A DNA stretch of 64,000 nt. Source: Streptomyces solicavernae. Its GTDB lineage: Bacteria > Actinomycetota > Actinomycetes > Streptomycetales > Streptomycetaceae. The notes beneath the pieces are model-generated. The model saw only the letters and a program-made list of their open reading frames with translations. It was not told where the DNA came from and did not search any database. Shown here in pieces: positions 47,329-51,178 of this stretch (position 1 is the stretch's first letter; each line of letters opens with the position of its first letter). The DNA is taken from NCBI RefSeq assembly GCF_029968095.1, contig NZ_JASCIR010000001.1:248001-312000 (forward strand), written 5' to 3'. The position numbers and the translations under genes were made by a program.

Positions 47329-48339
47329 CTAGGGGAACTCGTCCGCCACCACCGCGGCCGCCTCCGCGACCAGGGCGTCGTCGTGCTCGGCGTTCTCCTC
47401 GGCGTGGTTGGTGAGGACCGCGAGGACGAGCGGGGCCGCGTCCGGGCGCCACACCACCGCGATGTCGTTGCGGATGCCGTAGTTGCTGCCCATCCCGCTC
47501 TTGTCGCCGACCACCCAGTCCTCCGGCAGCCCGGCCCGGACGAGCTCCGCCCCGGTCACGTTGGTGCGCAGCCACTTCGTCAGCTGGGCGCGGTCGCGCT
47601 TGCCGAGGGTGTCGCCGAGTACGTAGGCGCGCAGGTCCTCGGCGAAGGCGCGCGGGGTGGTGGTGTCGCGGTCGCTGTCGGGGTCCCAGACGCTGAGGCC
47701 CGGTTCGTCGCGCTCCATGCGGGTCACGTCGTCGCCGAGCTCCGCGAGGAGGCCGTCGAGCGCCTTGGGGCCGCCGAGATCTTCGAGGAGCAGGTTGGCC
47801 GCGGTGTTGTCGCTGTACCGGACGGCCGCTTCGCAGAGTTCGCGCAGGGTCAGGCCGGTGTCGACGTGCTTCTCGGTGACCGGGGACGCGTCGACCAGGT
47901 CGCTCTTGTCGTAGCGGACCAGGCGTTCCATGCCCCGGTCGTCGTGTTCGCGCAGCACGGCGCCCGCAGCGAGGGCCTTGAAGGTGGAGGCGTACGAGAA
48001 ACGTTCGCGGTCGTGGTACGTGACCTCCCGGCCGTTGCCGGTGTCGATCGCGTAGACGCCGAGGCGGGCCCCGAACTTCCGCTCCAGCTGCTTGAACTTC
48101 CTTGCGGTGGCGTCCTGTTGCCGGACGGCCTCGGTCGATGTCCGGGACGGCGCGGCGGCCGGCTGCCTCTGAGGTGAGCCGCACGCCGCGAGCGGGACGA
48201 GGGCGAGCGTGGCGAGTGCGACGCCCGCGCAGCGTGCGATGTACCGGGGGCCGATGCGCTGGGGGCGGATGCGCTGGGGACGGATGCGCTGGGGACGGAT
48301 ACGACAGGGACGGATACGACAGGGACGGATGTGCCGCAT
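47329..48339 (-). CDS. Class A beta-lactamase, lipoprotein type
   Basis: 336 residues. The first 31 are a repeated [10 protein letters not shown] peptide from 15-bp units. The signal segment ends with lipobox LAAC (50-53), so the enzyme is probably membrane-tethered. Active-site motifs are STFK (118-121), SDN (176-178), the general base Glu in RDEPGLS (212) and DKSG. The usual Asn of E-P-E-L-N is Ser here, which may lower activity. It hydrolyses penicillins/cephalosporins. A true start downstream of the repeats (no good candidate seen) cannot be excluded. Confidence 0.92.
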
Positions 48340-48786: not shown

Positions 48787-49701
48787 CTAGCCCCCGATGC
48801 CCCGCCGGGCGCGGCGCGTTGCTGTCACCGTGAGTGTCGCGTAGGCGGCCGTGAACCTCCCGCCCAGCGCGTCGATCGCGGCGCCGACCTCGGTGAGGAT
48901 CTGTTGGACCTGCTCGGGTGCGAGGCGGGTCAGGGCGCCGTGGGTGGGGAGCTGGTCCAGCCAGGCGTCGCGGGTGTAGGTGTGCTGCCAGTCGTGGCGC
49001 CACCGCTCGGGGGCGTCGAAGTCGCCGGTGGCGCGGATGCCGTCGGCGGCGGCGTCGAGGAGGAGCTGGTAGCCGTCGGCCGCGCGGGACGTGGGGTCGC
49101 CGAGGCGGAACGGGGAGTCGGGTGCCACGCGCAGGCAGGCGGCGGCCAGGGCGCGGGTCACCTCGGGCGGCAGCTCCGGGACGTTCCAGAACACGGCGAG
49201 GCGGCCGCCCGGAAGCAGCGCGCGGGCCGCGACGGTCGCGGCAGCGGCGGCGTCCAGCCAGTGCCAGGTCTGCCCGGAGACGACGGCGTCGAAGCGGCGG
49301 CCCGCCGGGTCCCAGGACTCGAAGTCGGCCACCTCGACGTCCACGCCCGCGCCGCGCGCCAGGCCGGCCATGCGCGGGTCCACCTCGACGCCGACCACGC
49401 GGCAGCCGACGTCCCTGAACTGACGGGCGACGATGCCCGTGCCGCACCCGACGTCGAGCACCAGCGGGCCGCCCGACCCGGAGGCGGTCCCTGTCGGAGT
49501 CGAGGTCGGCGTCGGAGTCGAAGTCGAGGTCGGAGTCGGAGTCGGAGTCGGCGCGGCGAGGCGGTCGACAAGGGGCTGGGGGTAGCGGGGGCGGCTGCGG
49601 TCGTAGCGGGCCGCGTCCGTACCGAAGGAGCGGGCGGTCTGCCGGAGCCGGCGGGCATCGGGCGCGGGGCGGCCAGGAGGCCCCGGAGATAGAGTGGGCA
49701 T
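48787..49701 (-). CDS. Class I SAM-dependent methyltransferase
   Basis: 304 residues from ATG 49,701. Motif I is LVLDVGCGTGIVARQFRDVGC, followed by VVGVEVDPRMAGLARGAGV, FDAVVSGQTWHWLD and LLPGGRLAVFWN, typical of Methyltransf_11/25 enzymes. An insert PTPTPTPTSTSTPTPTSTPT between the first helix and motif I is encoded by hexamer-like repeats and looks like slippage expansion. The start lies inside the large palindrome shared with the TetR gene and has no ribosome site, so the mRNA may be leaderless. The substrate is unknown. Confidence 0.88.
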   Translation of the reverse strand: MPTLSPGPPGRPAPDARRLRQTARSFGTDAARYDRSRPRYPQPLVDRLAAPTPTPTPTSTSTPTPTSTPTGTASGSGGPLVLDVGCGTGIVARQFRDVGCRVVGVEVDPRMAGLARGAGVDVEVADFESWDPAGRRFDAVVSGQTWHWLDAAAAATVAARALLPGGRLAVFWNVPELPPEVTRALAAACLRVAPDSPFRLGDPTSRAADGYQLLLDAAADGIRATGDFDAPERWRHDWQHTYTRDAWLDQLPTHGALTRLAPEQVQQILTEVGAAIDALGGRFTAAYATLTVTATRRARRGIGG

Positions 49702-49730
49702 GCGCCCACTGTAGTGGGCGCATGCCCACT
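49693..49730. promoter_or_regulatory. 38-bp palindromic operator between methyltransferase and TetR genes
   Basis: AGTGGGCATGCGCCCACT (49,693-49,710) and AGTGGGCGCATGCCCACT (49,713-49,730) are exact inverted copies separated by GT. Each arm is itself an inverted repeat of AGTGGGC/GCCCACT, giving four half-sites. The left arm covers the methyltransferase ATG, and the whole lies upstream of the TetR start. It is almost certainly the TetR target. Confidence 0.85.
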
Positions 49731-49763
49731 CACCAAGGCCGAGCAGGGAGAGAGGTCCATACG

Positions 49764-50390
49764 GTGCCGACGGGGATCGCGATCCGCGACGTACGCGAGC
49801 AGCTTTTCGACGCGGCCGAGCGGGTGCTGCTGCGGGACGGGCCGAACGCGCTGACCAGCAGGGCCGTCACCACGGAGGCGGACTGCGCGAAGGGGGTGCT
49901 GCACCGGCACTTCGAGGACTTCGACGCGTTCCTCGCGGAGCTCGTCCGCGACCGTATCCGGCGCCTGGAGGGGCGGGCCGAGGCGCTGCTCGGGGCGGCC
50001 GGGACGGGCACGGTAGCCGGCAACGTCGCCGAGGAGCTGACGGAGCTGTTCGGCTCGGTGGCGGTGGCGATGGTCGGCCTCGTCACGTCGCGCGACGGGC
50101 TGCGGGCGCGGCTGCGCCGGACCACGCCCACAGGTGTTCCGCTCCTCACCGAGGCGACGGCGATGTTCGCCTCGTACCTTGCCGCCGAGCGCGACCTCGG
50201 CCGGGTGCCGGCCGACGCCGATGTGGACATGCTCGCCCCGATGCTGGTCGGGACGGGGCACCTGCTCCACGCCGACCGGCACGGCACGCCGCCGGAGGCG
50301 GCCGCGGTGCGGAAGGTCGTGGCCGGGATCGTGCCGGTGCGAGCCCAGTCCGACGACGGTTACGGGTGTGCGGTGCTGCCCGGTCCCTGA
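49764..50390 (+). CDS. TetR family transcriptional regulator
   Basis: 208 residues from GTG 49,764, nine bases after GGGAGAGAGG; the ATG at 49,722 lies inside the palindrome and was rejected. The HTH region reads LFDAAERVLLRDGPNALTSRAVTTEADCAKGVLHRHFEDFDAFLAELV. The rest is a helical ligand-binding domain with no recognised specificity. It is divergent from the methyltransferase gene across the palindrome and probably represses both, with a small molecule, perhaps the methyltransferase substrate, as inducer. Confidence 0.9.
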   Translation: MPTGIAIRDVREQLFDAAERVLLRDGPNALTSRAVTTEADCAKGVLHRHFEDFDAFLAELVRDRIRRLEGRAEALLGAAGTGTVAGNVAEELTELFGSVAVAMVGLVTSRDGLRARLRRTTPTGVPLLTEATAMFASYLAAERDLGRVPADADVDMLAPMLVGTGHLLHADRHGTPPEAAAVRKVVAGIVPVRAQSDDGYGCAVLPGP

Positions 50391-50469: not shown

Positions 50470-50901
50470 TCAGGGCCGCACGTAAGGCCGCGTCATGATC
50501 TCCATGTTGTGGCCGTCGGGGTCGTCGAAGTACGCGCCGCGGCCGCCGAACAGCCGGTTGATCCGGCCCGGTTCGGTGTGGCCCGGGTCGGCGTAGTACG
50601 TGACGCCGACGGCTTCGAGGCGGGCGATCATGCCGTCGAACTGCGTGTCCGGCACGAGGAAGGCGTAGTGCTGGGACTGGACGGGCTCGTCGGTCTTCTC
50701 GTAGTAGTCGAGCGTGACGCCGTTGCCCAGGTCGACGGGCAGGAACGGCCCGAACGGCGCGCCGACCTCCAGGCCGAGGATCGCGGCGAGGAAGTCGGCC
50801 GAGAGCCGCCGGTCCGTGGCGAAGACGGCCGTGTGATTCAACTGGGCGATGGTGGTGGGGAGTTCGGTCCCTGCGGTGGGCCGCGTGGGGTGGGTCGACA
50901 T
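50470..50901 (-). CDS. VOC family (glyoxalase/dioxygenase-fold) protein
   Basis: 143 residues from ATG 50,901, after GGAGGAACC. Two beta-alpha-beta-beta-beta modules: LNHTAVFATDRRLSADFLAAILGLEV and HYAFLVPDTQFDGMIARLEAVGVTYY, ending GRGAYFDDPDGHNMEIMTRPY. Metal ligands His (23) and Glu in MEI are present. Enzymatic role unknown. It is convergent with the TetR gene. Confidence 0.9.
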   Translation of the reverse strand: MSTHPTRPTAGTELPTTIAQLNHTAVFATDRRLSADFLAAILGLEVGAPFGPFLPVDLGNGVTLDYYEKTDEPVQSQHYAFLVPDTQFDGMIARLEAVGVTYYADPGHTEPGRINRLFGGRGAYFDDPDGHNMEIMTRPYVRP

Positions 50902-51122
50902 GGTGAGGTTCCTCCGGGTCTGGATTCCGTACGTAGGACAGGAAACGGGAGACGCGGAGAACAGGGGCGGGGCTCTGGCCCGCCTCGCGCTCAAGCCGAG
51001 GCCGGGAACCCAACTCGTACGTGGCACATGGCCGACCCGGCAGTCACGTGCGCGACTCTAGCCCCGCGCCCGGGCCGGGGGCAACGGGATTCCCACTCCC
51101 CCACCCCCGACGCCCCCGACAA

Positions 51123-51178
51123 CGGCCCATCGGCCCAGCGGCCCATCGGCCCATCGGCCCATCGGCCCATCGGCCCAC
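51123..51178 (-). repeat. 8-bp tandem array downstream of the FprB-like gene
   Basis: Seven units of CGGCCCAT (one CGGCCCAG, one CGGCCCAC) end five bases from the FprB-like stop codon, in the intergenic space before the VOC gene start. Confidence 0.9.

Follow-up and report, generated by a model that had tools for sequence, protein, structure and literature searches.

The 64,000-nucleotide stretch of the Streptomyces solicavernae genome analysed here (positions 248,001 to 312,000 of contig NZ_JASCIR010000001.1; hereafter the window) contains, where the genes of a class I S-adenosylmethionine (SAM)-dependent methyltransferase and of a TetR-family regulator diverge, a perfect palindrome of 40 base pairs (bp; 49692-49731), the arms of which (49692-49710 and 49713-49731, 19 nucleotides each and 100% complementary) are separated by a gap of 2 nucleotides. 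The palindrome is made up of two 18-bp dyads (AGTGGGCNNNNGCCCACT), 20 bp apart from centre to centre. The features of the locus, in order along the forward strand, are the following.

48787-49701, minus strand: class I SAM-dependent methyltransferase of 304 amino acids, assigned by Pfam Methyltransf_11 and by fold matches
49690-49695, plus strand: putative -10 box of tetR, TAGAGT (TAnAGT in relatives), over methyltransferase codons 3-4
49693-49710: operator dyad 1, AGTGGGC ATGC GCCCACT, holding the methyltransferase start codon and both predicted transcription starts
49699-49701, minus strand: methyltransferase start codon ATG (MPT...), inside dyad 1, at a fixed place in all 92 distinct regions compared below
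49708-49713, minus strand: putative -10 box of the methyltransferase, TACAGT, at -12 to -7 from the ATG, with conserved A at -11 and T at -7
49713-49730: operator dyad 2, AGTGGGC GCAT GCCCACT, inside the -35/-10 spacer of the predicted methyltransferase promoter
49731-49736, minus strand: putative -35 box of the methyltransferase, TTGGTG (TTGACG in relatives), with a 17-nucleotide spacer
49746-49755, plus strand: GGGAGAGAGG, a likely Shine-Dalgarno-like sequence ahead of the tetR GTG
49764-50390, plus strand: TetR-family regulator of 208 amino acids from GTG 49764 (start by homology), with Pfam TetR_N and the recognition helix KGVLHRHF

The original prediction had described a perfect inverted repeat at 49693-49730, with an AGTGGGC/GCCCACT dyad within each arm and the methyltransferase ATG beneath it. 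All three elements were found, the repeat being longer by 1 bp on each side, the dyads occupying 49693-49710 and 49713-49730, and the A of the ATG lying at 49701 on the minus strand, within dyad 1. The 40-bp palindrome is the longest perfect inverted repeat of the window (gaps of 0-10 nucleotides), and arms of 19 nucleotides were reached in none of 30 resamples drawn from a first-order Markov model of the window (range 9 to 17), although conservation among relatives is a stronger argument than this resampling that the palindrome is beyond chance. A terminator scan of positions 49600-49800 found none.

For the comparison with relatives, the TetR protein was used to search 295 genomes of the genus, 125 of which contained a match at an E value of 1e-20 or better, belonging either to this clade or to its sister clade, and 30 loci were fetched; a scan of named genomes gave 185 TetR relatives, the best 80 of which were also fetched. 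The dyads in the resulting 110 loci, some of which represent the same genome fetched twice, were scored with up to three mismatches each, and collapsing identical regions left 92 distinct pairs, including one with a P450 gene (L022) and one with a broken enzyme gene (L051). Two dyads 20 or 21 bp apart were found beside TetR in 102 of the 110 loci, the outcome that the original prediction had anticipated for orthologous gene pairs; in L025 the pair is located further upstream. The spacing is 20 bp in 42 and 21 bp in 50 of the distinct regions. As counted from record titles, the loci with a dyad pair cover 20 named genera, namely Streptomyces, Kitasatospora, Embleya, Planotetraspora, Thermoactinospora, Streptosporangium, Sphaerisporangium, Nonomuraea, Actinomadura, Actinoallomurus, Nocardiopsis, Nocardia, Frankia, Plantactinospora, Pseudonocardia, Kutzneria (metagenome-derived), Amycolatopsis, Saccharopolyspora, Saccharothrix and Herbihabitans, and the sole Kribbella locus has one dyad. 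A divergent methyltransferase match accompanies 105 of the 110 loci, being absent from L022, L052, L064, L068 and L084 and partial in L051 and L108. Perfect 38-bp symmetry was rejected as a conserved feature, as it is present in only five of the 92 distinct regions; judged by this comparison, the symmetry is incidental and the object that has been kept is the two dyads with their 20/21-bp spacing.

A stricter search with the exact double pattern TGGGCN4GCCCAN{6,7}TGGGCN4GCCCA gave hits in 98 of the 295 genomes of the genus, the reversed pattern used as a control being present in two. Every one of these 98 belongs to the set of 125 that have a TetR match, whichever the clade, and the 170 others at the same E-value threshold all lack the pattern (Fisher p ~1e-53, which is not a strict probability, since the genomes are related); among the 75 pattern places listed, 74 are within 400 bp of a TetR match. 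The window site is, on the sequence comparison, one instance of a paired switch that recurs next to this pair of genes in numerous soil actinobacteria. That some other regulator binds the site, the TetR gene being a mere neighbour, is most improbable: binding by the window TetR is itself a prediction, but the strict co-occurrence of pattern and TetR match, the retention of one dyad ahead of tetR in L052 and L064, both lacking a methyltransferase match, and the joint difference of a helix residue and a site base between clades (see below) all argue against it. The genome of the window carries the exact double pattern twice, at the window locus and beside a sister TetR, as well as one further single site with one mismatch (L003). 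No excess indicative of a wider regulon was seen in this genome, in which single sites with up to three mismatches number 505 per strand, fewer than for the reversed control (920).

The same position of dyad 1 holds the start codon of the enzyme in every one of the 92 distinct regions (ATG in 90 and GTG in two, read as CAT and CAC on the plus strand), and the reading frame that begins there runs for at least 200 codons in all 90 regions with an unbroken methyltransferase, L022 and L051 being excluded. The replacement of ATG by GTG in two regions speaks in itself for the codon in dyad 1 being the true start. Upstream of it, the -10 box of the enzyme ends in T (-7) in all 92 regions and has A as its second base (-11) in 89; the CATAGT form of the whole box (37 of 92) occurs mostly in the 21-bp class, where C is commonest at -12, and a further 14 regions have boxes that are neither CATAGT nor TAnnnT, the form that the TACAGT of the window matches. 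The -35 box lies just outside dyad 2 and reads TTGACG in 52 of the 92 regions, beginning with TTG in 73. Dyad spacings of 20 and 21 bp correspond to promoter spacers of 17 and 18 nucleotides, giving a layout in relatives of TTGACG, 17 or 18 nucleotides, the -10 box, 6 nucleotides and the ATG. These promoter-like boxes fit a leaderless methyltransferase promoter with dyad 2 in its spacer. In S. coelicolor, according to excerpts of a published study, about 21% of primary start sites give leaderless messenger RNAs and the -10 motif is TANNNT (PMC4895711).

On the opposite strand, 73 of the 92 regions have a TAnAGT box that fits a tetR promoter, the transcription start of which would fall near 49702 in the window. 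This box is not accounted for by the coding sequence of the enzyme, since L052 and L064, despite having no methyltransferase match, keep one dyad with TATAGT or TATGGT on the tetR side. In the enzyme gene it coincides with codons 3-4: codon 3 is ACT in 87 of the 92 regions, although ACT makes up 2.8% of the threonine codons in the rest of these enzymes, and a rare NTA is found at codon 4 in 78 of 92, compared with 0.47% of 24,182 other codons, as the TAnAGT box on the other strand would force it to be. Codons 3-4 of the enzyme appear to be frozen at the DNA level. Codon 4 is TTA in 13 of the 92 regions (L021, L023, L027, L029, L048, L054, L069, L080, L091, L095, L105, L111 and L113), compared with a single TTA among the 24,182 other codons of these enzymes. 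In Streptomyces hosts, where TTA codons confer dependence on bldA, these enzymes could be bldA-dependent.

We consider it highly probable that the 40-bp palindrome represents two adjacent operators of the neighbouring TetR, through which both genes would be repressed jointly until a small ligand releases the dimers. The comparison demonstrates the two dyads and the distance between them, the invariant place of the start codon, the conserved boxes and the linkage to this TetR; the binding itself and the repression are predictions, as are the ligand, the substrate and the points at which transcription starts. A dimer bound to dyad 1 would cover the leaderless enzyme promoter from its -10 box to the transcription start, together with the start codon; of the opposite-strand tetR promoter it would cover the last part of the -10 box and the transcription start. 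A dimer on dyad 2 would fill the -35/-10 spacer of the enzyme promoter, just downstream of the tetR start. As dyad 2 lies about two helical turns from dyad 1, both dimers would sit on the same face of the DNA, and together they would block both promoters, so that both genes would be repressed together. Binding of a small ligand by the C-terminal domain of TetR would free the dimers and allow the methyltransferase to be made, and the ensuing expression of tetR would refill the switch. That the inducer is a small molecule modified by the methyltransferase is a guess. The two-dimer binding and the switching of both genes put forward in the original prediction are favoured by the promoter boxes and by the covariation between recognition helix and site, and stand as predictions as regards binding itself.

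Facing each other across dyad 1, the two promoters should be mutually exclusive, and it is possible, though rather doubtful, that competition between polymerases contributes as much as blocking by the repressor; the two start points would lie within about 1 bp of each other in the middle of dyad 1, and mutual exclusion would make the pair a flip switch. The -10-like boxes do face each other across dyad 1, TAnAGT on the tetR side being as frequent as stated above and the enzyme side having an almost constant A at -11 and T at -7, and excerpts of a report describe such competition at the TetR-family locus acrR/acrA (PMC12825309); on the other hand, a flip switch is at odds with a tetR promoter that has no visible -35 box and with an enzyme box that matches TAnnnT in just 41 of the 92 regions, and the transcripts on both sides are predicted ones.

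The dyads could also act in RNA, the tetR leader folding the right half of dyad 1 and the left half of dyad 2 into a 5' hairpin that sets the stability or the translation of the messenger. A leader starting at 49702 is indeed predicted to form an 8-bp stem with a 4-nucleotide loop, but over the 92 regions changes in the seven stem pairs left pairing broken in 38 cells, 35 of which fall at the two outer positions of the half-site, and only two cells had both sides changed, and the leader folds no better than its shuffles (z -0.95). Moreover, the conserved sequence includes the outer half of each dyad, and conservation varies according to the recognition helix. With compensation scarcely seen and an ordinary folding energy, the hairpin reading was rejected as very improbable.

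The tetR gene most likely begins at GTG 49764, which is located 33 bp to the right of dyad 2 and the aligned codon of which is GTG or ATG in 82 of the 110 loci. The open reading frame as listed begins at ATG 49722, inside dyad 2; this start is open in the window, but the mirrored ATG is in frame in just 12 of the 27 relatives having one, and in one of these 12 (L056) a stop is found ahead of tetR, and it was rejected. With GTG 49764 assigned by homology, the site most probably does lie ahead of a divergent TetR gene, as the original prediction has it. The helix-turn-helix domain of the protein matches Pfam TetR_N (PF00440) with an E value of 2.3e-6 and 27.7 bits against a cut-off of 24, as searched with the longer frame, and its AlphaFold model is all helical, with a mean pLDDT of 88.4. 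The best fold matches in the PDB include GusR, NemR, EbrR and QacR, which we take to be members of the TetR family, and the closest named relatives are from Streptomyces. Binding of the palindromic operator by a TetR dimer is suggested by the conserved dyads together with the helix/base covariation.

This covariation concerns residue 48, numbered from GTG 49764 and placed inside the predicted helix 45-49 of the AlphaFold model, and the second base of the half-site, half-sites having been located regardless of base 2. In the clade of the window protein (clade A), residue 48 is Arg in all 100 distinct TetR proteins and base 2 is G in 355 of 382 half-sites. In the sister clade (clade B; 41-52% identity, 20 loci fetched), residue 48 is Ala or Thr in 18 of the 20 loci, and G is found at base 2 in none of the 72 half-sites of these 18. 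Such covariation supports a direct contact between the residue and the base. At least two exact TGGGCN4GCCCA dyads are present in 19 of the 20 clade B loci, 21 bp apart in 18, and 18 of the loci have as the divergent frame another methyltransferase-like protein (NTxQxxAWNGxEG..., named by eye from its SAM-binding motif); the two with Arg at residue 48 (L153 and L154) have a different neighbour gene. Since clade B keeps the paired dyads while its divergent start, in the likely frame, falls outside them, the paired operator appears to be older than the overlap with the start codon. The clade B TetR of the genome of the window itself (at G000:C1:508991; locus L146, G000:C1:507500-511200) has dyads 21 bp apart and a different methyltransferase-like neighbour.

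Several observations weigh against two adjacent TetR operators with the promoters proposed above. Eight of the 110 loci are without a dyad pair at 20 or 21 bp: the dyads are 23 bp apart in L024 and degenerate and 19 bp apart in L084, dyad 2 has decayed in L030 and L092 beside a methyltransferase match of nearly full length, a single dyad is found in L052, L064 and L108, and none in L068. In the set of 125 genomes that have a TetR match, 27 lack the exact pattern; among the five of these that were inspected, besides L024 and L030, one base of dyad 2 is changed in L035, and L155 and L156 are clade B loci with other spacings. On the promoter side, the whole TAnnnT box is present in those 41 of the 92 regions only, no conserved -35 box of tetR was seen across relatives, a sigma-70 scan of the window site returned no promoter on either strand and the enzyme hexamers of the window itself (TTGGTG and TACAGT) are poor. 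As for recognition, the Arg-containing members of clade B have G in just four of eight half-sites, and few independent events appear to lie behind the link between Arg48 and base 2. In L108 the methyltransferase match starts only at residue 128 and extends to the single dyad, and in L068 a transfer RNA gene is apparently located upstream, as judged by eye.

The loci with a single dyad (L052 and L064) or a decayed dyad 2 (L030 and L092, in which the methyltransferase match is nearly full length) would be accounted for if dyad 1 were the sole working operator and dyad 2 a leftover or a shaper of the spacer. This is unlikely: dyad 2 has been kept as well as dyad 1, with no mismatch in 58 and 60 of the 92 regions, respectively, and all but one of the 20 sister-clade loci contain two or more exact dyads.

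Under an extension of the paired-operator reading that we regard as conceivable but tentative, dyad 1 would be at once a repressor site, a leaderless start codon and the shared start of two facing promoters, codons 1-4 of the enzyme (Met-Pro-Thr-Ile/Leu) would be regulatory DNA in the first place, and the TetR dimers would choose between mutually exclusive polymerases. This arrangement would have been kept across many actinobacterial genera, the paired operator predating the split of clades that control two different methyltransferases, and TTA at codon 4 would add bldA dependence in some hosts.

In genome G006, the double dyad on the TetR side lies over the start of a P450 gene beginning MPTIPP, and the methyltransferase start is covered by another double dyad at a distance of about 2.3 kb, which implies that the operator with its start codon is reusable on another gene. 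The neighbours in this one genome include a tryptophan halogenase, a second methyltransferase, a second P450, UbiA, a polyprenyl synthase and a squalene-hopene-cyclase-like protein, and the TetR-methyltransferase pair with its twice-occurring double operator (L166 and L168; G006:C7:644500-666000) is located within an apparent biosynthetic cluster.

The methyltransferase of the window matches Pfam PF08241 (Methyltransf_11; 9.9e-16), and D83, G85, G87 and G89 of its glycine-rich SAM-binding motif are invariant among 27 sequences. Its top fold matches are methyltransferases (3ccf, HvrF, TTHA0223, OxaG and trans-aconitate methyltransferases), with 14-21% identity over the top ten, and a profile search agrees in placing 3ccf first. 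Assignment as a trans-aconitate 2-methyltransferase (NCBIfam NF010703) was rejected, as the score of 37.4 bits is far below the curated cut-off of 320. A glyoxalase/VOC-family gene (50470-50904, minus strand) adjoins tetR and has homologues within the fetched regions of L007, L020, L036, L040 and L096; it may be part of the module in some lineages. Near the locus is a class A beta-lactamase gene (47329-48339, minus strand; NCBIfam NF033103, 316 bits against a cut-off of 200), and short tandem repeats of GGATGCGCTGGGGAC-like and CGGCCCAT units were noted by eye at 48250-48330 and 51130-51176.

The analysis provides a predicted operator, target and recognition residue for a widespread set of actinobacterial regulators. 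It suggests that the opening codons of a leaderless gene can be set by an operator, which also pins down where the gene truly starts, and that paired sites of this kind could be used as an orthogonal switch with tight control. That a single lineage of regulators is paired with two different methyltransferases suggests a response to small molecules of an uncharacterised kind. Literature searches of open-licence PMC articles with operator strings and module topics gave no title describing the module, and the operator-string matches look unrelated by title.

In its general design, the locus resembles tetR/tetA, in which a dimeric TetR-family repressor jointly controls divergent genes from two palindromic operators, tetO1 and tetO2, located between them; here, however, the dyads are 20-21 bp apart from centre to centre and lie over the start codon of the target, which is a methyltransferase and not a pump. 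QacR, a TetR-family protein, also places more than one dimer on neighbouring DNA, as in the cooperative QacR-DNA complex that ranked 34th among the fold matches (PDB 1jt0). Two QacR dimers overlap on one site, whereas the window has two full, non-overlapping dyads side by side, 20/21 bp apart, and lacks a QacR-type operator. A repressor is likewise linked to a methyltransferase in M. tuberculosis, where, judging from article titles, the Rv0560c promoter is induced by salicylate-like compounds. Rv2887 presumably represses Rv0560c, but it belongs to the MarR family, unlike the TetR of the window. Divergently transcribed Streptomyces TetR regulators, as described in excerpts of a survey (PMC3511530), share with the window locus a short intergenic region, repression of the divergent gene (predicted here) and, in some cases, several palindromes (three at SCO7222); TGGGCN4GCCCA is in none of the seven operator sets of Table 2 of that paper, and the word methyltransferase does not occur in its main text. 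Finally, at E. coli acrR/acrA, opposite-strand promoters occupy one segment beside a TetR-family autorepressor and their polymerases can exclude each other, as excerpts of the report relate (PMC12825309). Promoters of that type share a -10 box, with starts mostly 18 and also 10 or 23 bp apart, whereas the window has two separate boxes (49690-49695, plus strand; 49708-49713, minus strand) flanking dyad 1, with predicted starts about 1 bp apart. The locus would accordingly represent a known kind of switch, in an unusual variant.
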